Shown here: one piece after another, positions 15,293 to 38,601 of the stretch
How the letters are laid out: each line of letters opens with the position of its first letter
Numbering within the stretch: position 1 is the stretch's first letter
Assembly (NCBI GenBank): GCA_011321845.1
Contig: DROQ01000080.1
Location: forward strand, 1-57,898
DNA length: 57,898 nt
Direction of reading: 5' to 3'
Source of the DNA: Planctomycetota bacterium
Lineage (GTDB): Bacteria; Planctomycetota; UBA1135; GCA-002748355
The notes under the pieces: model-generated
Seen by the model: only the letters and a program-made list of their open reading frames with translations
What the model was told of the DNA's origin: nothing
Database searches by the model: none
Program-made: the position numbers and the translations under genes

Positions 15293-17506
15293 TCATTTGG
15301 ACTTGTTGAGATAGAGGCTCACCCGGGTCGTGTAGAGACTGGAGAGGACCAAGTCACCCAGACCATCTCCATCCACATCCCCCAGGTCGGCCGAGGCCGC
15401 TTTGTAGGTTCCAGCGAAGCGCGTAGCCTTGAAGCCACCCTTGCCATCCCCAAGGAGGATGAAGAAGTCCGAGCTGTCGGCATTGGTCACCAGGATGTCG
15501 GCGAGCCCATCCCGGTTCAGGTCCTTGGCCATTAGAGCTGTTGGACCCTGGCCGACCTTGATGGACTGCTTTTGGAATCCGTTTCCCCCTGCCAGGAGAA
15601 GGCTCAGCTCATTGCCACCGAGGTTGCTGACGATCAGGTCGTCTCTTCCATCTCCATTAAAATCCGCGGAGCGTAGGTAGTTGGGGAGGTTTCCGACGGG
15701 GAGGTCCATTCCCAGCTTGAAGCCACCCTTGCCGTCTCCATAGAGGATCGAAACGGTCCCAAGCTTGTAGCGGGAGACCGCCAGGTCCGCCTTTTGATCC
15801 CCGTTGAAATCCTTGGAGAGGATGCTGAGGGGTCCCCCCTTGAGGGGAATAGGTGGGAAGGGAGCCGAAAAACCAAAGCCCTTCGCGCTGCCTTTGAGAA
15901 TCCAAACCTGATCCCCTCCATAGTCGGCCAAGGCCAAATCATCGAAATCATCCTCGTCGAAACGCCCGGTAACGATCTCGAAGGGCCCCGCTCCTCCCTT
16001 GAAGGGAGCCTGGTTGATGGGTGGAAACAGGTCGAAGTCAAAGGATCCCGGAGTGGACTTGTTCAGAAGGAATCGCAGCCCTCCAGAGACTGCGATCACA
16101 ATGTCCACCTTGCCGTCCTTGTTGAAATCACCCTTGCCGAGGTCCCCGGGGAGTTTCCCGACATTGTATTCCTTGACTTTCTCGAGCTTGCCGGTCTTGC
16201 TTCCTTGGAGAATGGCGACGATCCCCGCCTTACGATCGCTGACCGCCACATCGGCGTAACCATCTCCATCGAAATCCGAAGAGACCAGGAAGATGGGCTC
16301 CTTCCCGCCCGTGGCGAAGTTCTCGGAGCCGAGTAGCCCCTTGTTCCCCAGGCCACGGATCCATGAGATCTTTTGTGAGTCCAAACCACTTGTCAGGACG
16401 TCCAGATGGCCATCTCGGTCCAAGTCCACAACCCGGCACTGGGTGGGAATCCCCGAGGTTCCGAATTGGCGCTCGGGTCCAAAGACCCCTCCACTTTTTC
16501 CAGGGAGGAAGCCGATCGCAGGACGGTCCAGGAAGGCGACGACGATGTCAACCAACCCATCTTCGTTCACATCCCCAAGGTCGGCATAGACGGGATCCCC
16601 GTCCACGTCCAGAGTCTTCCCCGCGAGGAAACTCCCTTTACCGTCTCCAGGGAAAAGGGAGAGATTGCCCGAGCCGTAGTTGGTCACCAGCAAATCCAAG
16701 ATCCCATCCCCAGTGAGATCCTTGGCGTCGATCTTGACCGGCCCCTTCCCCAAGGTGGAGAACATCTTGCGGGAGCTGGCCACGAATCCCTTGGAGGAGC
16801 CGAGCCAGGTGATCACCTCGTTCCGCGTGAGATCCGTTCCCGCGAGGTCCAGGAAACCATCCTTGTTCCAATCCCCCACGGCCACGGCGTTGATCTCAGC
16901 CTTGGTTCCCGCCGCAAGGTCGGCCGGCGCGAGAAAAGTCGCCCCTTGGGACAAGAACACCCGGAGCACCTCCCCCCGATTGGCCCCCAGGGCGAGATCC
17001 ACCCGGCCGTCCTTGTTCAGGTCGGCCGCCAAAAGGCCTGCGGCTCCTTTCCCGACAGAAAGACTCTTGCTGTCTTCCTTGAGCTGCCCCTGGCCATTGT
17101 TTCGAAGGATCCGGATCCAGCCTTTGGCTGGGAAGAGGCAGGCCAAATCCTGGTCCCCATCTCCATCGAAGTCCCCCGAGACCACTTCACCCGGCTCCTC
17201 CACATAGGCGAGGGACGTCCCAGCCTTCAAAGACAGCCGAGCGGGGCTGGAGGCGATGGCTACGAGCAGTTTCCGCGATGAAAAGCTCGTAGCGACAAGG
17301 TCCAAGACTCCGTCTCCCGTGAGATCCGCAGTGGCCAGGGCCCGTAAGCCGGAGACCCCCATCTCGAATTCTTGACGGGTCTGGAATTGGACGGAGCCGA
17401 GGGTGACGTTCCCCCCTCCTCCACCACCGCCCCCACCGTTGTGGCAGGAACTCAGTGCGAAACTCAGGAAGGAGGCAGTGCAAAAGGCGAAAAATCGGGC
17501 GTTCAT
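15293..17506 (-). CDS. FG-GAP/VCBS-repeat lipoprotein (14 repeats)
   Basis: MNARFFAFCTASFLSFALSSC is a lipoprotein signal with lipobox LSSC, followed by HN and nine consecutive glycines, a flexible tether. The rest of the 737 residues is about 14 repeats of the calcium-binding FG-GAP type, each with a core like D-x-D/N-x-D-G-x-x-D-L/I (for example SGDFDGDGDQDLACL, AADLNKDGRVDLALG, LGDVDGDGLGDLVLS), which would form one or two beta-propellers. Two repeats (GRFDEDDFDDL, KDFNGDQKADL) have altered calcium loops. It is probably exposed at the cell surface and binds ligand or mediates adhesion. It is the first gene of a four-gene minus-strand operon; a 16-bp palindrome lies just before its ATG. Confidence 0.9.
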   Translation of the reverse strand: MNARFFAFCTASFLSFALSSCHNGGGGGGGGGNVTLGSVQFQTRQEFEMGVSGLRALATADLTGDGVLDLVATSFSSRKLLVAIASSPARLSLKAGTSLAYVEEPGEVVSGDFDGDGDQDLACLFPAKGWIRILRNNGQGQLKEDSKSLSVGKGAAGLLAADLNKDGRVDLALGANRGEVLRVFLSQGATFLAPADLAAGTKAEINAVAVGDWNKDGFLDLAGTDLTRNEVITWLGSSKGFVASSRKMFSTLGKGPVKIDAKDLTGDGILDLLVTNYGSGNLSLFPGDGKGSFLAGKTLDVDGDPVYADLGDVNEDGLVDIVVAFLDRPAIGFLPGKSGGVFGPERQFGTSGIPTQCRVVDLDRDGHLDVLTSGLDSQKISWIRGLGNKGLLGSENFATGGKEPIFLVSSDFDGDGYADVAVSDRKAGIVAILQGSKTGKLEKVKEYNVGKLPGDLGKGDFNKDGKVDIVIAVSGGLRFLLNKSTPGSFDFDLFPPINQAPFKGGAGPFEIVTGRFDEDDFDDLALADYGGDQVWILKGSAKGFGFSAPFPPIPLKGGPLSILSKDFNGDQKADLAVSRYKLGTVSILYGDGKGGFKLGMDLPVGNLPNYLRSADFNGDGRDDLIVSNLGGNELSLLLAGGNGFQKQSIKVGQGPTALMAKDLNRDGLADILVTNADSSDFFILLGDGKGGFKATRFAGTYKAASADLGDVDGDGLGDLVLSSLYTTRVSLYLNKSK

Positions 17507-27089: not shown

Positions 27090-28712
27090 TTGTTCCCCCT
27101 CGCCCTTCTTCTGCTTTTCCCCTTGCTGCGGGAAACCCCTCCTCAAGCAGGTCAAACACCTCCCAACTTGCAAAAAAACTCCACCACGGCTCCCTCAATC
27201 CTCCCTCCCAGGAAGTCGGTCGTCCAGGAGACTGTTTCAAAACACCCTGGATCCAGGTCGCCGTCCCCCCTCCCACAAAAAGGCAAGGGAGGGCTGATCG
27301 GCGAGGTTCGAGACCTTTTCGAACGCCCCATCCCCGGAGTGCACATCCGAGTCCACCTTGGGGGAAAACACGGCGAGTCCCTCCTCACGAACAGCGATCC
27401 CCAAGGGCGCTTCCGACTCCCCCTCGACTTTGTCGGCCCGCTCTTCCTCTTTGCCAGCCATCCTGATTTCGCCCCCCAAAAAAAGCCCCTTTTCCTCGAC
27501 CGCAAAGACCCGAATTCCTGGCTCCGGGTCCCCAAGATCACCCTCCTGTCCGGCCGGCGCCTGGCCTTTCAGTTTCGGAATCCCGGTGGAAATCCCCTGG
27601 CCGGGGTGCGGGCCTTTCTCCAGGAGAAACTGGGCACAGATCGGGGTCCCTTCCAGGACCCACCCAAGGAAGCCACCAGCGACCCCTCGGGGAGAGTCCA
27701 GTTTCTCGGCCTCCCCCCCGACTCCAAGGACAGCGAATTCCAGCTCCAGATCCTCCCCCCGCCACCTTACATCCCCACCCTCCTTAAAAGCTGGCCTCCA
27801 AGCCAAGGGGGGACACCCATTCCAGTGACCCTCCTCGAGGGTCTCAGCCTCCGCGGGAGGGTCGAGGACTCCTTTGGGCGGCCTTCTCCCAAGGCCCAGG
27901 TTCGCCTCCTCCCCCTTGGGTCGTCCTCCCCACCTCCCCCCAGCAAAGCCCAGATCCAAAGCGAAGGTCGCCGCCCCCCCTCGCGGACCAGCCCCACAGA
28001 GCGGTCCCCCCTCCCCTCCCAGGTCCGCTGCGATGCGCAGGGGCGCTTTTTTCTCCAGGGGCTCCCCAGAGGTCCTTGCCAAATCCTGGCCCACCCTCAT
28101 TCCCTCCCCCCTCGGGTCTGGATCAAGCAACGAATCGAGCTTCCGTTCCAAGGGTCCCTTCTACTCCGGCTTCCCAAGGGAGGGAGGCTGGAGCTTCGCC
28201 TCCCGGCCCATCTCCCCTTTACCTCCTTCGGCTTTCTCAGATCCACCGACGGCCGCAACTGGCGGGAAACCAATGGGGATATCCCCATCCCCTCCCATCC
28301 TCCCTCCTCCCTGACCCGGGACCAACTCCCCCGGGAAACCCTCCGACTTCGCCTCCATAACCCCCAAGGATTCCATTTCACGACCCACAACTTGGACTTC
28401 GAGGCGCGGGAACGGATCCCTCTGGATTTGAGCCCCCTCCTGGGCGCCAGACTCAAGGGCCGGATCAGGGGGGTGGCAAAACCCCGCAAAGGAGGGGCGC
28501 TCCAGATCCGCCTGCTTTCCACGGACCCCAAGATCCAAGCACTGGGAAGGATAGAAAGGAATATTTGCCGAATCGAGATCCAAGAAGACGGCAGCTTCCA
28601 GCTTGGGCCGGTCCCAGCGGGAAGATATGAGCTTCGATGGGGATCCCATACCCTGGGGAGCGTCCAACTTGCTCCTGGGGGAACCATCGAGAAGAGCTTT
28701 TCTCTTCCCTGA
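27090..28712 (+). CDS. Surface protein with carboxypeptidase-regulatory-like repeats; start unclear
   Basis: The only conventional start near the beginning is TTG 27090, but it falls inside what looks like one hydrophobic signal segment: the upstream codons (about 27051-27089) would add GRRGLGFFLL, and the frame stays open for more than 100 bases upstream without an ATG or GTG. The true start is therefore unresolved (rare start codon, or frameshift). The body has several beta-sandwich repeats like GLIGEVRDLFERPIPGVHIR, SLRGRVEDSFGRPSPKAQVR and LKGRIRGVAKPRKGGALQIR, the pattern of carboxypeptidase-regulatory-like (CarboxypepD_reg) domains. The DNA is strikingly C-rich. It is a paralog of the type encoded at 28881. 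Confidence 0.75.
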   Translation: MFPLALLLLFPLLRETPPQAGQTPPNLQKNSTTAPSILPPRKSVVQETVSKHPGSRSPSPLPQKGKGGLIGEVRDLFERPIPGVHIRVHLGGKHGESLLTNSDPQGRFRLPLDFVGPLFLFASHPDFAPQKKPLFLDRKDPNSWLRVPKITLLSGRRLAFQFRNPGGNPLAGVRAFLQEKLGTDRGPFQDPPKEATSDPSGRVQFLGLPPDSKDSEFQLQILPPPPYIPTLLKSWPPSQGGTPIPVTLLEGLSLRGRVEDSFGRPSPKAQVRLLPLGSSSPPPPSKAQIQSEGRRPPSRTSPTERSPLPSQVRCDAQGRFFLQGLPRGPCQILAHPHSLPPRVWIKQRIELPFQGSLLLRLPKGGRLELRLPAHLPFTSFGFLRSTDGRNWRETNGDIPIPSHPPSSLTRDQLPRETLRLRLHNPQGFHFTTHNLDFEARERIPLDLSPLLGARLKGRIRGVAKPRKGGALQIRLLSTDPKIQALGRIERNICRIEIQEDGSFQLGPVPAGRYELRWGSHTLGSVQLAPGGTIEKSFSLP

Positions 28713-28880: not shown

Positions 28881-30908
28881 ATGAAAAACCTTCTCGTTGT
28901 CCTTTTTATTCTCCTCGTTGGATCTGGACTTTTCCTCGCTTTTGGAAGTGACCTGTTCCATTCCACCCCAACTCCCCAAGGCCAGGGAGATCCCGAACTC
29001 CCCACTCTGGACAAGAACGATCAGAACCCTTCGGAAATCGACACCAAGGGGATCGAAATCGAGCCCAAATCCCAGGGGAAGAAAACGGAAGAACAGAAGG
29101 CAGCCCAGGGTCGAAGCGAGCGCACGGAGTTCAAGCAACCTGAACATCCTCAAGGTGTCCGCGGTCGAGTGATCTCCTTCCTTGGACAGCCTGTCGCCAA
29201 GGCCAAGGTCTACCTTCTCAAGGAGATCCCCCCCACGGATATGATCCGCCTTCTGGCCATGATGCAGCAGGGGAGCGGGATCCGTGCTCAAATCGTTTCC
29301 GAGACCCGCACGGACGCCTTGGGACGTTTCACCCTCCGCGCCCCGGCGACCAAAGGGGAAGCGGGTTATGAGGTCCACATCGTGGCTCCCAAGATGAAGA
29401 TCATGCGGAAGAAGCTTCGGCTCCTTCCCAAACACTGGGAGGACCTGGGACTCATCCGGCTCGAACAGGGCAAGACCCTCTTCGGGCAAGTCCGCCAAGA
29501 AAAAACCAAGACTCCGATTCCCGGCGCAACGGTCCTGATCCGGCTCACCCAAATGAATGTTCTCGTCCCTACCCCCGGCTTCGAAGACGGAATTCCCGCC
29601 AAAACGGATTCCCTGGGTCGCTACGAGGTTTCGGGGCTCCCTGACGGCCCCTTCGAGGCCAAGGCCTTCGCGCGCGGCTTCGGGACCATCATCAAGCCCG
29701 ACATCGCCTTCACCCACAACGAAAAACGCCTCCAACAAAACTTCGATCTCCCTCGGGGATACGAGATCGAAGGCTGGGTCGTGGACGCGGACGGCAAGCC
29801 CATTCCCCGGGCTTCGGTCGAGGCCATCCCCTTTTCCACCCAAAACCCCACGAGGGGGACCGATCGGACGGACCAGGATGGGCACTTCGCCATCCTGGGA
29901 TTGGCCTCGGGCCAGTACATGATCAAGGCCGAAGCAAGTGGCTTCGTCACCACCGAGAAGAAACCCGTCAAGGCTGGAGACAAGGAATGCCAAGTCGTCC
30001 TGGAGCGGCAGAGCAGCATTCTCGTTCGGGTCCTATCCAAAAGGGGAAGCCCCGTACGCAACTACAGACTCGAGGTCAAGACCTGGTTCGAAGGCCAGGA
30101 AGGATATGGGAAATCCCAGATTCCCCCCGTCGAAGTGCGCGGCGCCAAGAAGGGAACCTACGAACTCTCCGGCCTCAACCCGGGCAACTATGTCCTCCAG
30201 GCCGAATCCCTGGACTACGCCAAGTCCTTCAGCCAGAAGTTCCGCATCGCGGGGAACAGCACGGATCCCCGCGAAATCGTCATCCACATGAGTAAGGGGG
30301 GCAGCATCAAGGGACGGGTCGTCGACCTCCAGGGTCGCCCTGTGGCAGGAGCGTCCGTGAGATCCCTGGACAACAGTTTCCAGGACAACCCCCTCACCCG
30401 GATCTTCGCCACGATGATGACGGTCAACGTCTCCCAGAAATCGGTCGTCACCGATCGCAAGGGAAACTTCACTCTCAAGCTGATGACGCCCGCGACCTAC
30501 CAGATCGAGATCAACCACCCCGCCTTCTCCAAGACCTACAAAAAGGACATCGTCGTCAGGGACGAGCAAGTCACCCATGTAGGAAACATCCTCCTGCGCA
30601 AGGGGGGGAGGGTCGAAGGCATTGTCATCTACAAGGGAGCCCCCCTCGCGGGTGCCAAGATCTCGCTCAGCGGGCGAGTGGGAGACCCCAAGAAACCCCA
30701 GATGGTCTACGAGAACGTATTCGCGGACGCCAAGGGGCGGTTCAAGATTCCCCGCTCCCTCCCGGCGGGCGACTATGAAATTCAGGCCTCCCGGACCAAC
30801 CTCGCAAACCCCATTCTGGCAATCGCCGACATCCAGCGGAGCACCACGCATGTGGTCGTCAGGGATGGCCAAACCACCCGGGTCCGTGTGGAGATCAAAA
30901 GCCAGTAG
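28881..30908 (+). CDS. Secreted protein with multiple carboxypeptidase-regulatory-like domains
   Basis: The N-terminus MKNLLVVLFILLVGSGLFLA is a membrane or signal segment, followed by an acidic linker. The rest has about six beta-sandwich repeats, each starting with a G-x-V-x-(D/S)-x-x-G-x-P-V/I-A/P-G-A pattern: RGRVISFLGQPVAKAKVYL, EGWVVDADGKPIPRASVEAI, KGRVVDLQGRPVAGASVRSL, EGIVIYKGAPLAGAKISLSG. Some repeats contain RTDQDGHFAILGLASGQY, typical of these domains. They are structural modules common in surface proteins of Planctomycetota and Bacteroidota. No clear Shine-Dalgarno is seen before the ATG. It follows a protein of the same type in the same direction 168 bases upstream, so the two may be co-regulated. 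Confidence 0.88.
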   Translation: MKNLLVVLFILLVGSGLFLAFGSDLFHSTPTPQGQGDPELPTLDKNDQNPSEIDTKGIEIEPKSQGKKTEEQKAAQGRSERTEFKQPEHPQGVRGRVISFLGQPVAKAKVYLLKEIPPTDMIRLLAMMQQGSGIRAQIVSETRTDALGRFTLRAPATKGEAGYEVHIVAPKMKIMRKKLRLLPKHWEDLGLIRLEQGKTLFGQVRQEKTKTPIPGATVLIRLTQMNVLVPTPGFEDGIPAKTDSLGRYEVSGLPDGPFEAKAFARGFGTIIKPDIAFTHNEKRLQQNFDLPRGYEIEGWVVDADGKPIPRASVEAIPFSTQNPTRGTDRTDQDGHFAILGLASGQYMIKAEASGFVTTEKKPVKAGDKECQVVLERQSSILVRVLSKRGSPVRNYRLEVKTWFEGQEGYGKSQIPPVEVRGAKKGTYELSGLNPGNYVLQAESLDYAKSFSQKFRIAGNSTDPREIVIHMSKGGSIKGRVVDLQGRPVAGASVRSLDNSFQDNPLTRIFATMMTVNVSQKSVVTDRKGNFTLKLMTPATYQIEINHPAFSKTYKKDIVVRDEQVTHVGNILLRKGGRVEGIVIYKGAPLAGAKISLSGRVGDPKKPQMVYENVFADAKGRFKIPRSLPAGDYEIQASRTNLANPILAIADIQRSTTHVVVRDGQTTRVRVEIKSQ

Positions 30909-30938: not shown

Positions 30939-32714
30939 TTATGCGATCGGGGAATGCGCGATCGGCACGGGTTCCTTGGGGAAGCTGAGGACAAAGGTCG
31001 TCCCCTTCCCCACCTCGCTCTCCACATGGACATCCCCCCCATGGCCTAGGATGAGCTGCCGAACGATGTAGAGCCCCAGGCCCGTCCCGGAGGTTCCACT
31101 CGTGTTGCTGCCCCTCGAGAATTTCTCCCAGATCTTCTCCTGCGAGTCCTCTGGGATTCCGATCCCATTGTCCTCGACCGAGATCTCGATGCGATCCCCA
31201 AGGTCCTTTCCATAAATCCTGAGGATGCCTCTCTCCTTGTTGGGATCCATATAGCTCGCCGAGTTTCCGATCAGGTTCATGAAAATCTTCAGCAAGGCTT
31301 TCATATCGGCCTTGATCACGGGGAGGGCTTCGACTCGAACCTGGATGCCCTGGTCCTCGATGAGGAAGCGGAGCCTCCTCAGAATCGTCCCCATGAGGAC
31401 CATGAGATCCACTTCTTCGAACTCGAAGTGCATTCCGTCGTAGTCCAGCCTCGAGGACTCCACGATGTCATCGATCAGCTCCTGCATGTACTCCACGGAC
31501 TCCGAGGCGTTCTTCAAGGCTTCGGCTTGCGTGGGTTGCAGCTCTCCCAAGTGCCCCCCAAGGAGGAGACTGATCACCGTTTTGAACACCGTGAGGGGTT
31601 TCTTCAAGTCATGGGAGATCAGCTGGTTGACCTCGACCAACTCCCGGTTCTTGCGTTCGACCAGGGCCTTGTACTCGGACAGATCCGAATACAGCTCCGC
31701 CAGCTCGAGGTTGGATTGAACCGCCTGCCCGAGGAGGGTGTGTTCTTCGTCCCCAAGGATCCCGGACTCGGGCTTCTCCAGCCCTTCTCCCTGCCCTGTT
31801 CCCTCCTGGGGCGGTTCTGCCTCGACAGGTTCCTTCCCAGGGTTTTCTTCGGAATCCGTTTCCTGGGGAACGGCAATCTGCGGCGTATCCTCCTGGAGGG
31901 TCTCTTCTTCAGGAACTTCCTCTTGAGCCGCCTCCCCTTGGGGCCTTCTTTCACCGGCAGCCTCGAGGGGATTGTCCTGATCCGAAACCTGCAGGTCCAG
32001 GAGCACCCCCGCACCCAGAGGAGCCTCATCGACCTTGGGCTCTTCCGCTGCGGGAGCGTAGGCAAGGATCCTCTCCCTGGCTTTCAAGGCGATGGCTTCG
32101 GGGGCTTCACCTTCCTTCTTACCGAGTCCGTACTGGCGGACCTTGTCCTCTACGAGCTGGGCTGAAGCCTGGGCGAAGGCTTCCAAGACACCCTGTTGCT
32201 CGGTGGCGATCGACGGAAAGGTCTCCACATCCCGGAAGCGGTATTTCTCGATCATCTCTTCGACCGAGAGGGTCCCGGGCAGATCCATTTTGTTGAACTG
32301 GATCACAAGCGGAATCCTGGTCCAATCCAGCCCGTTCAGATCCAGGTTCTCCTTGAGGTCCTCGATGGCCCTGAGGTTGTCCTCGATCCGATCCTCCTGG
32401 GAATCCACCACCAGGACCACCGCATCCGCCCCCGAGAGGACATACCGCCGCATGACGACATACTTGGGTTGGCCGGGAACCGTGAATCCCTGGATCCGAA
32501 TTTTGAACCCATCCACTGTCCCCAGATCGATCGGAAGGAAGTCGAAAAGGAGGGTCGCATCCTGCTCGGTATTGATGGAAACCAGCTTGACCTCGTCCTT
32601 GGGACAGAGAAGGTTATGCACCACCTTGAGACTGGTCGTCTTCCCACCTAGGCCCACTCCGTAGTAGACGAGCTTGGCGTTGATCGTTTTTTCAGCGAGA
32701 TTGATGAAGCCCAT
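30939..32714 (-). CDS. MglA-type small GTPase fused to a histidine kinase
   Basis: Residues 1-~215 are an MglA/Ras-like GTPase: P-loop GVGLGGKTT (19-27), switch region TEQDATLLFDFLP, TVPGQ (78-82) in place of DxxG as in MglA, and NKMD (141-144). Residues ~230-320 are an acidic, low-complexity linker. Residues ~330-580 are a histidine kinase: a dimerisation helix with LISHDLKKPL (His368), N-box MNLIGNSA (Asn484), G1 DNGIGIP and G2 SGTGLGLYIV. There is no signal peptide and no membrane segment, so it is probably soluble. MglA controls polarity and motility in other bacteria and is normally a single-domain protein. No MglB or response regulator is encoded beside it. Confidence 0.9.
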   Translation of the reverse strand: MGFINLAEKTINAKLVYYGVGLGGKTTSLKVVHNLLCPKDEVKLVSINTEQDATLLFDFLPIDLGTVDGFKIRIQGFTVPGQPKYVVMRRYVLSGADAVVLVVDSQEDRIEDNLRAIEDLKENLDLNGLDWTRIPLVIQFNKMDLPGTLSVEEMIEKYRFRDVETFPSIATEQQGVLEAFAQASAQLVEDKVRQYGLGKKEGEAPEAIALKARERILAYAPAAEEPKVDEAPLGAGVLLDLQVSDQDNPLEAAGERRPQGEAAQEEVPEEETLQEDTPQIAVPQETDSEENPGKEPVEAEPPQEGTGQGEGLEKPESGILGDEEHTLLGQAVQSNLELAELYSDLSEYKALVERKNRELVEVNQLISHDLKKPLTVFKTVISLLLGGHLGELQPTQAEALKNASESVEYMQELIDDIVESSRLDYDGMHFEFEEVDLMVLMGTILRRLRFLIEDQGIQVRVEALPVIKADMKALLKIFMNLIGNSASYMDPNKERGILRIYGKDLGDRIEISVEDNGIGIPEDSQEKIWEKFSRGSNTSGTSGTGLGLYIVRQLILGHGGDVHVESEVGKGTTFVLSFPKEPVPIAHSPIA

Positions 32715-32906: not shown

Positions 32907-34637
32907 TTAGAAGAATTCCCAGAGGAAATTCCGCACTCGGGCCGCGAAGGGCTCGGGATCCCCTTGGGGAGGGGCCTTGCTGAGCTTTTTGAGCCTCGCC
33001 CAATCCGGGAAATCCAAAGCCTCTTTGAGGTATCCCAGGACCTGGACCCTCTCCCGGGTGGGGGCATGGGGGTTGTAAAGGACCTTTTCGCGGAAAAACC
33101 TGTGGATCTTGCTCCTCCGGGCGAGACCCTCGGCGTCGGAGGAAAGCGCAGCCAGATCGGCCAGAGCCCCGAGGAGGTGGCTCCGACGAAGGGAGTCCCC
33201 CTTGAGTTGTTCGTAAAGCGGCATCAAGCGATCCTCGCTCCCGGGGATGTTGGCCATCATGAGAGCCGAGTAGCTGACAGTGTCGATCCCGTTCTTCCTG
33301 GAGATCCAACGGGGAGGAGAGCGAAAAACCCGCATCAGGGCGGGAATACTCCGGGGGCTCCGGAGGTGGCCCAGGGCCTGGAGCAGAGGCCTGAGCCCCT
33401 GGGTCCCCTGCCCGATCCGCTGGATCCGTTCCTCCAGGATGGGGACAATTTCGGCAATCCTCGCCTCGATGCAGAGGTCACGGAGGAGCCGGAACTTGGT
33501 CCCCGTAGCCTCGCGCAGTTCCCCCAGGACCTCCCCGAAAATTTGGGTCTTGCGCCCTCTGAGGGCGCGGAAGGCACCCCGTCGGACGCTGAGATCCGGG
33601 TCCGAGGCAAGGACCTCGAGGATGGAGGTGCTGCGTTCCCCCGGGATCCTGGCGAAGAAGCCGGTGACCGCGCCCCGGACCAGAGCCTCCTTGTCCCCCG
33701 CCAGGACCTCGATCTCCCGGATGGATGCCTCGGGATCCCGCTCCGCGAGGGCGTTGATCAAACCCGCCCGAAAGGCCGGATCCTTGGCCCGCTTCAGGGC
33801 CTGGAGCAAATAGGCCCTCCCCTCCTCGCCCCCCGAGCGGTGCAGTTCCATGGCCACCACGGCCCGGAGGTTCTCGGGGAAGGCGAGGATCTTGCCTCGC
33901 AGGGTCGCCAGACTGAGTTCGGGACGTTCGGCGCGCTTCAAAGCGTCCAGAAGCTCAGCGTGCAGCCCGCTCAGCCGCTCGGGGGCCACCCGGCCGTCCA
34001 GGATCCCGCGGAAGAATCGCGCCGTCAGGCCAGGCTCCCCTCGCCTGGCCAGGATCCGGAGCACAAGGCCCTGGCCGCTTGGGGAGAACGTGGCAAAGCC
34101 CTTCATCAAGAGCAGCACCGTGGTCCGATCCGCGCACTGGACCAGCGCCCGAAGAGCGTCCGTCCGCACCCCTGGATGGGAGTGGTCCAGGGCCTTGCGC
34201 AGAAAGGGAGAAGCCTCCTCCTCAGCCCGGTCTCCCAGGATTTGGATCACATTGCGAAGGGGAGCGGTATCGGGGTTTCCCAGCAACTGCTTCTGCCCGT
34301 AGCGCAGCAGGGCTTCTCTGAGTTCCGGCTCCTTGGAGCGGGCGCAGAACCCCTTGGCAAACCTCCATGCCCTTGCTGTGGTGTTGCCGCTGACCTTTTC
34401 CACCACCCTCTGGATGGCCTCGCTCTTGGAGAACTTGTAGGCCTCATGGGTAGCCGGGGATGGATCCAAAACAGGCATGAGCGCAAATTCGGGCTCTTTG
34501 GGGCCGTCCCCCGGCCTTTCGCCAGAACCATGCTCGCCCCCGTTGCAGGCCAAGAGCCCGAGGAGGACCAGGGAGAAAAGAAGCGGGACTCGGATCTTGC
34601 GTTTCAAAAGCACCCTTGATCTAGAGAGGAAAGGCAC
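32907..34637 (-). CDS. HEAT-repeat lipoprotein
   Basis: The N-terminus has a basic stretch and a hydrophobic core ending LLGLLAC, a lipobox, so the 576-residue protein is probably membrane-anchored. The body is helical repeats of the HEAT type (ILGDRAEEEASPFLRKALDH; HPGVRTDALRALVQCADRTT; DPDLSVRRGAFRALRGRKTQI; GHLRSPRSIPALMRVFRSP). No catalytic motif. The start is GTG 34637; GTG 34613 is an alternative and would shorten the n-region. It lies after the TolC-family gene (gap 34 nt), so the two are probably co-transcribed. It is likely a protein-interaction scaffold of the cell envelope; the function is unknown. Confidence 0.8.
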   Translation of the reverse strand: MPFLSRSRVLLKRKIRVPLLFSLVLLGLLACNGGEHGSGERPGDGPKEPEFALMPVLDPSPATHEAYKFSKSEAIQRVVEKVSGNTTARAWRFAKGFCARSKEPELREALLRYGQKQLLGNPDTAPLRNVIQILGDRAEEEASPFLRKALDHSHPGVRTDALRALVQCADRTTVLLLMKGFATFSPSGQGLVLRILARRGEPGLTARFFRGILDGRVAPERLSGLHAELLDALKRAERPELSLATLRGKILAFPENLRAVVAMELHRSGGEEGRAYLLQALKRAKDPAFRAGLINALAERDPEASIREIEVLAGDKEALVRGAVTGFFARIPGERSTSILEVLASDPDLSVRRGAFRALRGRKTQIFGEVLGELREATGTKFRLLRDLCIEARIAEIVPILEERIQRIGQGTQGLRPLLQALGHLRSPRSIPALMRVFRSPPRWISRKNGIDTVSYSALMMANIPGSEDRLMPLYEQLKGDSLRRSHLLGALADLAALSSDAEGLARRSKIHRFFREKVLYNPHAPTRERVQVLGYLKEALDFPDWARLKKLSKAPPQGDPEPFAARVRNFLWEFF

Positions 34638-34671: not shown

Positions 34672-36249
34672 TCATGATTTCCGCTCCCTTCCTCGGGTCG
34701 AAGGGCGGGGGAGAACGGAGCGGGGGCTCAGAGTTCCCAGGATGGACTGGAGCTGGAACCAGGAGCTGCGGTAATCCAGGCGGGCCTTGAGCAGACGGGA
34801 ACGGGCGTCGGAGAGTTCCTGGATCCGGCGCTGCACCTCGAAGGCGGTGGTGGAATCCAGGTTCAGGCGGATCCGTTCGGTCTCCAGATTGGCCTCGGCC
34901 AGTTCCACCGAGTGCCGGGCCGCGTCGATCGTCTTCTTTTGCGCACGCAGGGTCCGGTAGACATTGCGCAGATCCTTGGCAAGGTCGATCTCAAGAACCC
35001 GCAGGCTGCGCCTTGCCTTTTCCAGTTCGAGGCGGGCCTTGCGAAAGGAAGCCTTGGCCGCGAGATTCCCGATGGGGATCTCGAAGGCGAGTTGCAGGCT
35101 GTAGTCGGGGAAGGCGAAGCCGAAGACATCCTCCTGGTACTTGGAAGTATCGTCTCGGATCGCGTCGCTGGAGACACTGCCACTGAGGTCCAGCTTGGGA
35201 TAGAGATCCCAGCGGGCCTTCTGCTCTTGGAGAATCGCCTTGGACACTCGGTCCCTCCCCGCCTTCAGATCCGCCCGCGTACGGCGGGCCTGTTCCAGGG
35301 CCTTAGGGAAGGGAGGGAGGACCAGGGCGGCGTCCGCTTCTCCAAGCTCCTCCGCGGGGATCAAGACCACCTCCCAGTCCTCGACCTCCCGAAAGGGCAG
35401 GATCAGGCGTTTCAACTGGTCCTCACTCTCCAGGATGGCGTTCTCGGCGAGGATCAACTCCTCCTCCTTGCGGGCCACGTCGGCCTGGTCGGCGACCTTG
35501 TCCTTGGTCGCCAGTTCCCCAAGGCGGATCTTGCGCTCCGTGCGCCGAAGCTGCTCCCTTGAGATCTCCAGGCTCTGGTACTTGACCCGGTAATCTTCCC
35601 GGACGAAGACCAGCTCGTAGTAAGCCTCGGCGATCTGCTGCAAAACCGTCTGCACCCGGCGCTGGAAGTCGCGTTTGGAAGCCCGGACCTCCAACTCAGC
35701 CTCCCGGTAGTCCGCGAGAACACTGCCTCTCCAGCCACCTCGCAGAAGGGGCTGGCTCGCGCTCAGCTTGACCTCGCCAAAGAAGAAGGTGGAGGGAAAG
35801 GCGAAAGGAGAGTTGACTTTCTGGTTGATGTAGCCGGGTGAAAACGCCAGCTCCAGGGTTCCGCCCGTGTCGAAGGTCTTCCTGGCTCCGATGTTGAGGT
35901 TGTAGGTTTTGGCCACCGAGCTGGGCTGGAAGGTGCTCCGGGCGGGCGACTCCGAGCGGGACCAGGAGGCCTCCACGAAAAAGGCTGGATCGAAGACCGC
36001 ACGAGTCTGGTCGAAATTCTGGCGGGCGATCCTGCTTTCCAACCGGGAAACCGCGAGGTCCTGGTTTTCCAGGGTTCCCAGCTCAAAACACTGTTTGAGT
36101 CCAAGCCGCAGACGCTTCCCCGGCCGCTGGTCGGTGGGGAGGAGAATCTTCTTCTTCGCCCCTTGGGACGGGACTTTCTGCTGTCCTGGAAGGCAGGAAA
36201 GGGCGAATAGAACCGAGCATAAAACCTTGTACAAATTGCGTCTCCTCAT
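34672..36249 (-). CDS. TolC-family outer-membrane efflux protein
   Basis: The 525-residue product has an N-terminal signal (YKVLCSVLFALSC, possibly a lipobox) and the paired long-helix architecture of TolC: two alpha-helical regions rich in Ala/Arg/Glu/Leu (ADYREAELEVRASKRDFQRR; LRRTERKIRLGELATKDKV; ARLELEKARRSLRVLEIDLA; SVELAEANLETERIRLNL) separated by beta-strand parts. TolC-type proteins form trimeric channels for export. No inner-membrane pump or adaptor is encoded nearby, so its partner must lie elsewhere. Both neighbours run in the same direction. Confidence 0.88.
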   Translation of the reverse strand: MRRRNLYKVLCSVLFALSCLPGQQKVPSQGAKKKILLPTDQRPGKRLRLGLKQCFELGTLENQDLAVSRLESRIARQNFDQTRAVFDPAFFVEASWSRSESPARSTFQPSSVAKTYNLNIGARKTFDTGGTLELAFSPGYINQKVNSPFAFPSTFFFGEVKLSASQPLLRGGWRGSVLADYREAELEVRASKRDFQRRVQTVLQQIAEAYYELVFVREDYRVKYQSLEISREQLRRTERKIRLGELATKDKVADQADVARKEEELILAENAILESEDQLKRLILPFREVEDWEVVLIPAEELGEADAALVLPPFPKALEQARRTRADLKAGRDRVSKAILQEQKARWDLYPKLDLSGSVSSDAIRDDTSKYQEDVFGFAFPDYSLQLAFEIPIGNLAAKASFRKARLELEKARRSLRVLEIDLAKDLRNVYRTLRAQKKTIDAARHSVELAEANLETERIRLNLDSTTAFEVQRRIQELSDARSRLLKARLDYRSSWFQLQSILGTLSPRSVLPRPSTRGRERKS

Positions 36250-36324: not shown

Positions 36325-37761
36325 TCAACGCCCGCCCAAGTAGGGAGCGAGATAAACCGTCTGAGACAGGAGGAGAATCGAGGCTTCGCGGAGCGAAGCC
36401 GGAGTCGCTCCGGCGATGAGTTTGCGAAGGGCGCCTTCGAAGCGCGCCCAGCCCCGTTTGGGAGGAAAGAGGCTCCAGGAGAGGTGATAGAGGGTCGTGC
36501 TGTCGGTCCCCAGCCAGCTTGGGTTCCGCTCGAAGAAGACCAACCCCTTGCGGATGGCCTCGGGGTCCACCAGGTCCCCATAGCCGAAAAGGAGGGCCGC
36601 CCGGGCGTGGACGCCCTTGTACCCCTTGGCGTGCGTCCTCAGCAAGAGGTGCTGGAGGAAGGCCTGGCGCAGCCGGTTCGCCGCCTCGGGAGGGGCCGAG
36701 AGCGCGGGCGCAAGCCGCAGGAGAAGCCCCGCTTCGGCCAGGGCGCCCAAAGGGCTGGCCCAGGTGCCCAAAAAGTTCTTTGCGCCGGGGGAGGAAAGCC
36801 GCTCGGCCCCTTCCCGGGCCCGCAGTCCCTCCGCCTGTTCCCGGGTAAAACGACGCAACGCTTCCGAGAGAACCCGTACCCGTCGGCCATTGGTGATCAG
36901 CGCTCCCTCGAGGTAGGCGCCCAGGGCCACCGCCAAGGAAGGGCCATGAAGCCTCGGAAGCCATCTCTCCGTCCGGTCCAGCAGCTTCCGCACCCAGGCG
37001 GCGTGTGGGCCGCGCCGGGTCGTGGACCCGGAGGCGAGGAGGGCCTTGAGGGCCAGGGAACAGTCCTCCACCTTCTGGTAAGGGGGGACCTCCTTCCCGT
37101 CCTTCTCTTCCAATTCCTGCTCGCTCGATTCCAAAAAGCCCACCAGCGCCTTTGCGAGGACTTCAATGCGCCTGCGGCTGCGGGAATCGAGCCCCGAGGC
37201 GCGCCCCCCCATCACCGAAAAGACCGAGCCCGCCCGCCTCCGAAGCAAAAACCGCAGCATGCGAAGGTCGTTGTTGGAGTGGATCCAGGAAAGCGACTCC
37301 AAGGGGTTGCTCGGCAGGGCGGTGCTCTTCTCGAGCCGCTCGCGCACCGGCGGAGCCTTGGTTCCCAGAGCCGGGCCGGCTTCCCCGGGTTCCCAAGGAA
37401 TCGCTCTTTCCTGAAGCCTGGAGAAAAGCCCGAGGAACAAGAGGAAGGCCCCCATCAACAGGACCAGACCAAGCCCCAGGCGGAGAAAGGCAGAGCGCCC
37501 AAGGGCCAGTTCCAGGTTCCACAGGTACTTCCACGCCCCAAGGTTCCGTTCCAGCCGCCGGTCCCGCCGAAGGGCCCGGGCACGCACAACTGTAGCCACC
37601 CGTTTGCTGGGTCGCAGCGACTCAAAGGCCTCCAGTTCGGGCAGAAGGTCCTGGAGCTCCCCCGCGAGTTCCGGGTCCTCCCGAAAGAGGGGCGAGCCAC
37701 CCAGGCCTTCGGGGCCAGGCTGTCCCATCGCGTCGCTGCTCTTGTCCTCGGGGGGCATCAT
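36325..37761 (-). CDS. Single-pass membrane protein next to an ECF sigma factor
   Basis: The 478-residue product has a charged N-terminal region (about 110 residues, including ELAGELQDLLPELEAFESL and RVATVVRARALRRDRRLERN), one membrane segment (LRLGLGLVLLMGAFLLFLGLF), and a large, helix-rich C-terminal domain outside (for example SRRRIEVLAKALVGFLESS). It follows the sigma gene by about 100 bases, and the layout (cytosolic N-domain, one helix, extracytoplasmic domain) fits an anti-sigma factor, though the usual zinc-finger anti-sigma HxxxCxxC motif is not present. The identity as anti-sigma is an inference from position only. Confidence 0.7.
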   Translation of the reverse strand: MMPPEDKSSDAMGQPGPEGLGGSPLFREDPELAGELQDLLPELEAFESLRPSKRVATVVRARALRRDRRLERNLGAWKYLWNLELALGRSAFLRLGLGLVLLMGAFLLFLGLFSRLQERAIPWEPGEAGPALGTKAPPVRERLEKSTALPSNPLESLSWIHSNNDLRMLRFLLRRRAGSVFSVMGGRASGLDSRSRRRIEVLAKALVGFLESSEQELEEKDGKEVPPYQKVEDCSLALKALLASGSTTRRGPHAAWVRKLLDRTERWLPRLHGPSLAVALGAYLEGALITNGRRVRVLSEALRRFTREQAEGLRAREGAERLSSPGAKNFLGTWASPLGALAEAGLLLRLAPALSAPPEAANRLRQAFLQHLLLRTHAKGYKGVHARAALLFGYGDLVDPEAIRKGLVFFERNPSWLGTDSTTLYHLSWSLFPPKRGWARFEGALRKLIAGATPASLREASILLLSQTVYLAPYLGGR

Positions 37762-37869: not shown

Positions 37870-38601
37870 TCAGGCTCCCCCCGCCTCGCGTCGCGGAGGC
37901 GCTTCCTGCTGTTCGACGAGCAAGCCCTTGAGCGCCTTGACCGCGTTGTGCATCCGGGACTTGACGGTCCCCACGGGGATCTCCAGCAGTTCGCTGATCT
38001 CGGGATAGGGAAGCCCCTGGTAGACCGCCAGCTCGAAAACCAGGCGGTGCCCCTGGGTAAGCCTTTCGAGTGCCCGGCGCATGCGGACCTTTTGTTCCTC
38101 CTCGACCATGTCCTCCAGCACGCTGGGTTGGTCGGCCTCCACACTGGCTCGCAGGGGCTGCTCCTCCTCCCCGTTGGCCGCATCCAGGGAGTAGAGCCGG
38201 GGCCGCGGTTTTTTGGAACGGTAGTCGTCGATCCAGAGGTTGGTGGCGATCCGGTACAAGAAGGTCGAAAAACGACCACGGGCCTGGTAGCGGTGTGCAC
38301 TGCGGAGCAGCCGCAAGAAAACCTCCTGGGTGAAGTCTTCGGCACGGCCCTGGTCCCAGCAGAGACGATAGAAAAAGCGCATCAGGGGGGCTTCGAAGCG
38401 CTCAACGATGACATCGAAGGCCCTGGGGTCCCCTAGCCGAAACCGCTCCATGAAATCGGGGGAACTCTCCTCGGGGAAGGATGCGCCGGCCTCCACTCCC
38501 GCGCTCCCCTTCTTCTGGGAACCTTCCTCAACCCCCTTGGGGGGCCTTGGGGACCAGCCCTTCGCGTTTCGGCTGGAGTTTCGTGGAGAGGGTTTCGGCA
38601 T
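37870..38601 (-). CDS. ECF-type RNA polymerase sigma factor
   Basis: Region 2 is clear: GDPRAFDVIVERFEAPLMRFF, CWDQGRAEDFTQEVFLRLL, then FSTFLYRIATNLWIDDYRSK. Region 4 has LTQGHRLVFELAVYQGLPY followed by ISELLEIPVGTVKSRMHNAV, the -35 recognition helix. The 243-residue product is longer than most ECF factors because of a Ser/Lys/Pro-rich N-terminal extension of about 50 residues. It runs in the same direction as the membrane protein at 36325, a candidate partner. It is probably a transcription regulator for an envelope response (inference). Confidence 0.93.
   Translation of the reverse strand: MPKPSPRNSSRNAKGWSPRPPKGVEEGSQKKGSAGVEAGASFPEESSPDFMERFRLGDPRAFDVIVERFEAPLMRFFYRLCWDQGRAEDFTQEVFLRLLRSAHRYQARGRFSTFLYRIATNLWIDDYRSKKPRPRLYSLDAANGEEEQPLRASVEADQPSVLEDMVEEEQKVRMRRALERLTQGHRLVFELAVYQGLPYPEISELLEIPVGTVKSRMHNAVKALKGLLVEQQEAPPRREAGGA

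Follow-up and report, generated by a model that had tools for sequence, protein, structure and literature searches.

A conserved planctomycete fusion of an MglA-type GTPase to a histidine kinase, without the known off-residues of either half

The planctomycete window analyzed here, the whole stretch of 57,898 nucleotides, encodes a genuine and conserved fusion of an MglA-type GTPase to a histidine kinase, and the known off-residues of both halves, the arginine finger of the GTPase and the Thr/Asn of HisKA, are missing in all 22 fusions compared. Conservons already offer a known case of a histidine kinase and an MglA-family GTPase that function together, as separate proteins. A search confined to the open literature yielded no description of an MglA–kinase fusion, so that wide prior description of the architecture, named in a first-pass annotation of this DNA as grounds for refutation, was not found there. 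The 2014 survey of MglA proteins set aside sequences longer than 240 aa, and fusions would therefore have been missed in it (PMC4316618).

The source genome is a draft of 4.16 Mb in 268 contigs. The fusion gene occupies 30939-32714, as first annotated, and lies on the minus strand, with its ATG at 32714, a stop ending at 30939 and no stop over 591 codons (591 aa); stops interrupt the frame on the plus strand. The Arf-like, HisKA and HATPase_c domains expected from the first reading were all recovered above the curated Pfam cut-offs (28.3, 42 and 98 bits, respectively). The MglA-like G domain (residues 1-195; 32130-32714, minus), assigned from the Pfam Arf domain, MglA structures, residue counts and the tree described below, carries GVGLGGKTT (G1), T54, TVPGQ (G3) and NKMD (G4), with Ala at residue 53. 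In sequence searches, the N-terminal 194-195 residues matched the M. xanthus MglA crystal structure (PDB 5ymx, E 3e-47) and the C-terminal 230 residues matched HK853-type kinases (E about 5e-29). When the AlphaFold model was compared by structure, it likewise pointed to MglA (TM-score to target 0.80-0.85) and to HK853; the model is a monomer, its confidence is moderate (pLDDT 67, pTM 0.39), and it is uninformative on domain contacts.

Between the two halves lies an acidic linker (residues 223-321; 31752-32048, minus) that begins with a recurrent L-x-L-x-V-x-[DE]-like motif; the disorder first read from its letters agrees with a prediction covering about 100 residues (pLDDT about 30), with its pN/pS and with its lengths in relatives. 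A signaling helix follows (residues 322-367; 31614-31751, minus; supported by the model and by alignment conservation) and is continuous with the DHp helix. In the model a single helix spans residues 322-385 and leads into the DHp helix, an arrangement shared with other soluble kinases, so the kinase half probably dimerizes and autophosphorylates normally. HisKA (residues 364-424; 31443-31625, minus) provides the phospho-acceptor His368, the acidic D369 and K372 at the phosphatase Thr/Asn position, and HATPase_c (residues 470-581; 30972-31307, minus) provides N484, D515 and GTGLGL. The protein ends in a tail conserved in the alignment, PKEPVPIAHSPIA (residues 579-591; 30942-30980, minus), whose 13 residues are identical in the genus sister and whose HS-containing form occurs in 20 of the 22 fusions. 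Reading of the open reading frame and the Pfam search recognized no sensor domain besides the G domain. PADLOC gave a single match (28 bits), which covers the HATPase region and corresponds to a generic ATPase fold, and membership in a defense system was rejected; a search for RNA families in the window was also negative.

The same uninterrupted frame is present in relatives. A second genome of the genus shows an identical frame layout at 84% identity (record L005), and full-length, stop-free fusions were found in three families of the order, f1 (the window's family), f3 and f6. Phylogenetic spread, a check proposed with the first annotation, extends to 38 of 154 genomes of the order that carry the G-domain lineage of the fusion (8 of 8 in f1, 1 in f3 and 29 in f6); the lineage is absent from all listed members of f8. 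The aligned set comprised 22 full-length fusions, including open reading frames extracted from 21 relatives, every one of which has Met at the aligned start (21/21). An assembly or sequencing error that joined two genes, such as a frameshift removing a stop between them, has in its favor that the genomes are draft assemblies and that in one of them (G005) the halves sit on separate contigs. More than 20 genomes preserve the gene as a single open frame, and its starts align at one Met; this conservation refutes a frameshift or assembly join, and we put the chance of such an artifact as close to nil.

The two ends and the middle of the protein have evolved very differently. Raw pN and pS were used against the genus sister, since synonymous sites are saturated, in place of NG86 dN/dS; pN was 0.034 in the G domain, 0.039 in the helix plus HisKA, 0.064 in HATPase and 0.346 in the linker, with pS ranging from 0.70 to 0.81 (0.346/0.807 for linker pN/pS). 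The low pN at both ends and the high pN between them therefore point to strong purifying selection on the GTPase and kinase domains and to a linker that is much freer to change. Among the fusions, inter-domain spacing ranges from 94 to 181 residues.

Residue numbering of the fusion coincides with that of M. xanthus MglA, and residues T54, T78, Q82, H368 and D369 are each invariant (22/22), as is the TVPGQ of G3. Residue 53, the arginine-finger position of MglA, is Ser in 13 fusions, Ala in 8 and Gln in 1, never Arg. The G domain first described as complete is thus so in GVGLGGKTT, TVPGQ and NKMD but not in its arginine finger. During catalysis MglB positions this intrinsic arginine of MglA toward the nucleotide (PMC6876712); the residue is essential in Group 1 MglA and conserved in all Group 1 members of the 2014 survey, while Groups 2-5 have Thr in its place and GTPGQ as G3 (PMC4316618). 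TVPGQ without the arginine fits neither signature. Like Group 1 proteins (M. xanthus and T. thermophilus MglA, SofG), the fused G domain has TVPGQ, T54, T78, Q82 and the same fold, and it is about 41-44% identical to M. xanthus MglA over 190 residues; unlike them, it lacks Arg53, is joined to a kinase instead of forming a single domain under 240 aa, has no MglB gene coupled to it or nearby and falls in a clade separate from the organism's own mglA. It differs from Groups 2-5 in having TVPGQ for GTPGQ, and Ala, Ser or Gln where those groups have Thr for Arg.

A change at residue 53 in 22 of 22 fusions would also be expected if hydrolysis were wholly lost and the G domain had become a static scaffold, for example for dimerization. 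The invariance of Q82, T78, T54, the P-loop and NKxD across the clade, together with low pN, argues instead for retained nucleotide chemistry and makes such a pseudo-GTPase very improbable. The lost arginine finger could be compensated by another residue, such as K84 next to Q82, or by a partner. Every fusion has Lys84 (window 32463-32465, minus), two residues past Q82, and Lys is also the common residue there in the sister subfamily (PGQxKY), where M. xanthus MglA has Phe; Lys84 might partly replace the arginine.

In the kinase half, the phospho-acceptor His and its acidic neighbor, both required for kinase activity, are kept in all 22 fusions, as is each position of the N, G1 and G2 boxes; together with the Pfam scores, these features mark an orthodox HisKA kinase. 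As in HK853/PhoR/WalK-type kinases, HisKA and HATPase_c are combined with every kinase box, and no kinase matches better in sequence than HK853, which also ranks among the top structural matches. Unlike those kinases, the fusion has no PAS, GAF or other recognized sensor, and the His+4 position, which carries Thr or Asn in bifunctional kinase/phosphatases, is Arg in 15 fusions and Lys in 7. The complete HisKA/HATPase core claimed at first reading is therefore present as to His368 and the N, G1 and G2 boxes and lacks the Thr/Asn phosphatase residue, which is found at His+4 in all 22 other readable H-boxes of the same genome. Loss of the Thr/Asn in CrdS, HK1190, HK4262 and HK853 abolished phosphatase activity and left kinase activity (PMC3510030). 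By sequence, both domains of the fusion are intact for binding, with the P-loop, Mg threonine and catalytic glutamine on one side and the ATP-binding boxes, His and acidic neighbor on the other; from the absent off-residues we infer slow GTP hydrolysis and a missing phosphatase. Lys or Arg at His+4 predicts the lack of phosphatase activity without proving it, and HDL-type kinases are a varied group.

The reading that we tentatively prefer, at slightly less than an even chance, is that of a soluble orphan kinase whose output is biased by the nucleotide state of its G domain, the MglA-like GTPase standing in for the usual sensor domain. The G domain would bind GTP and hydrolyze it slowly, and would therefore remain GTP-bound until a GAP, GEF or other partner acts. 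Its nucleotide-dependent switch surface would then favor or block the autokinase by contact with the kinase core or through a shared partner. Either route is more plausible than a rigid push, which is unlikely across an inter-domain stretch of about 100 disordered residues whose length varies. The first-pass annotation had proposed that the GTPase directly gates the kinase; gating is the most plausible reading, and GTPase/kinase pairing is also seen in adjacent genes of Myxococcota-type genomes, but its direct transmission through a disordered, fast-evolving linker of 94-181 residues is doubtful. The kinase would phosphorylate an unlinked response regulator without being able to dephosphorylate it, and signal termination would therefore have to occur elsewhere than in the fusion kinase. 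Rather doubtful in our estimate is a single-chain latch, in which both reset reactions have been removed together and GTP loading would be converted into lasting, one-way phosphorylation reset only by outside factors.

The long, variable and disordered linker would also suit a mere tether: the G domain, when loaded with GTP, would bring the kinase to a partner or a place in the cell, and kinase activity would be independent of nucleotide, as in the annotation's other suggestion that the GTPase places the kinase in the cell. Myxococcus MglA-GTP works by localized partner binding (PMC6876712; PMC7668184). As expected of a portable unit, members of the subfamily are also found as stand-alone proteins and in combination with GAF or GAF-kinase. 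We nonetheless consider such targeting unlikely, as these bacteria have no known partner or site and the retained Q82 and T54 suggest that nucleotide cycling matters, which tethering does not strictly need. Loss of the arginine finger alongside invariant nucleotide-binding motifs, with no dedicated MglB in the searched genomes and no other sensor domain found, could alternatively describe a G domain with slowed hydrolysis that reports the GTP:GDP (or ppGpp) ratio, and thus growth state, to the kinase. Small GTPases, however, bind nucleotide tightly and are normally blind to pool ratios without a GEF, and we judge a pool sensor quite unlikely.

The origin of the G domain was traced in a maximum-likelihood tree of 64 G domains, in which the 22 fusions form one group with support of 100/100 and are joined, again at 100/100, to a planctomycete subfamily from other families. 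The organism's own mglA, flanked by two mglB genes, is a separate gene in another region of the tree. Origin from this polarity mglA was rejected on the difference in clade, and the polarity GTPase invoked in the first annotation gives way to a G domain that, by its placement, represents a distinct planctomycete sister subfamily. The sister subfamily occurs in several builds: stand-alone (L096, L097, L099, L100, L105, L106, L110, L112), with GAF (L101), with GAF-HisKA-HATPase (L098, L103, L104, L108 and L109 by Pfam; L107 and L111 by kinase profile; L115 divergent) and with a kinase but no detected GAF (L114). Two f33 proteins (L101:3067-4683 and L102:3236-4852, minus) combine an MglA-like domain with a C-terminal extension and have no kinase; GAF was detected in the extension of L101 and not in that of L102, and these proteins are perhaps the nucleotide-sensing half without an output.

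Physical coupling of GTPase and kinase recurs outside the window's lineage, as GAF-kinase fusions in other families and as gene pairs in three Myxococcota-type MAGs. The planctomycete MglA-GAF-HisKA-HATPase fusions share with ours the sister GTPase lineage and a C-terminal histidine kinase, which in their case may be an independent acquisition; they differ in that the seven typical members (L098, L103, L104, L107, L108, L109 and L111) have GAF and keep both Arg53 and Thr at His+4. The double loss is therefore tied to the window's lineage; Arg53 by itself is also altered in L110, L112, L114 and L115. In the three MAGs (L007, L008, L009), mglA is followed by an adjacent PocR-HisKA-HATPase gene. 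These loci couple an MglA-type GTPase to a HisKA kinase as the fusion does, but in two genes, with a PocR sensor domain and with arginine and threonine kept; a tblastn impression that they were distant fusions was discarded, the genes being separate though adjacent. The genes overlap by 4 bases, on a crude choice of start, in L007 (2513-4713) and L009 (7995-10099), which looks like translational coupling. Conservons (AGPS) of actinobacteria encode the CvnA histidine kinase, CvnB Roadblock, CvnC and CvnD GTPase as four separate proteins (PMC4316618, PMC13343842). They resemble the fusion in treating a histidine kinase and an MglA-family GTPase as a unit, whereas the fusion is one chain from a single fused gene, not an operon of kinase, Roadblock, CvnC and GTPase genes, and has no Roadblock gene nearby. 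The route of GTPase–kinase communication in conservons, with four proteins involved, is poorly understood; a one-chain version, with sister lineages in which the off-residues are retained, opens the question to a simple in vitro test. GAF, kinase and ion-channel partners also present MglA-type domains as portable regulatory modules well beyond cell polarity. The ion-channel case is a 933-aa protein (L118:1746-4544, minus; G163) in which an MglA-like domain that keeps its arginine finger is joined to pentapeptide repeats and an ion-channel domain.

Neither expected partner, MglB or an orphan response regulator, was found beside the fusion. Roadblock matches were absent from its contig in the window's own genome and in 21 relatives; in the fusion-bearing relatives they always lay on another contig, mostly flanking a separate mglA, and MglB was rejected as a partner. 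G004, a genome at 93% completeness, retains the fusion but yielded neither a separate mglA nor any Roadblock match, apparently having lost its polarity module. With the Roadblock matches on other contigs and none in G004, the fusion seems to have no need for MglB, which fits the loss of the arginine at residue 53. At G000:C135:19326-24177 (L117), two histidine kinase genes enclose a third Roadblock (MglB-like) gene, and a receiver gene follows downstream; a third Roadblock match that lies apart from mglA is likewise present in G001, G007 and G053. No receiver domain was detected in 20 neighborhoods of the fusion (up to about 10 kb on each side) or in the 58-kb window, with a profile that found 30 of 30 positive-control loci. 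The kinase is therefore an orphan, and its partner cannot be named among the 37 receiver matches of its own genome.

In f1 the fusion follows a conserved run of genes, all on the minus strand in the window: an ECF-type sigma factor (37870-38601), a 478-aa single-helix membrane protein (36325-37761; possibly an anti-sigma factor, by position only), a TolC-type outer-membrane efflux protein (TolC/OEP; 34672-36249) and a predicted HEAT-repeat lipoprotein (32907-34637) that is conserved beside the fusion. In f6 it is preceded by a two-domain ABC ATPase and a secreted protein of ~440 aa. No gene common to the f1 and f6 contexts was found, and neither context therefore gives the function of the fusion. 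The ~440-aa protein (L056:7738-9045 and f6 orthologues), directly upstream of the fusion, has no Pfam match and on visual inspection looks like an inactive M16 peptidase. Two adjacent plus-strand genes of the window (27090-28712 and 28881-30908), which converge on the fusion gene, encode proteins with carboxypeptidase-regulatory-like repeats, the second of which is kept beside the fusion in f1. Elsewhere in the window, a minus-strand gene at 15293-17506 encodes a 737-aa FG-GAP repeat protein with eight stretches.
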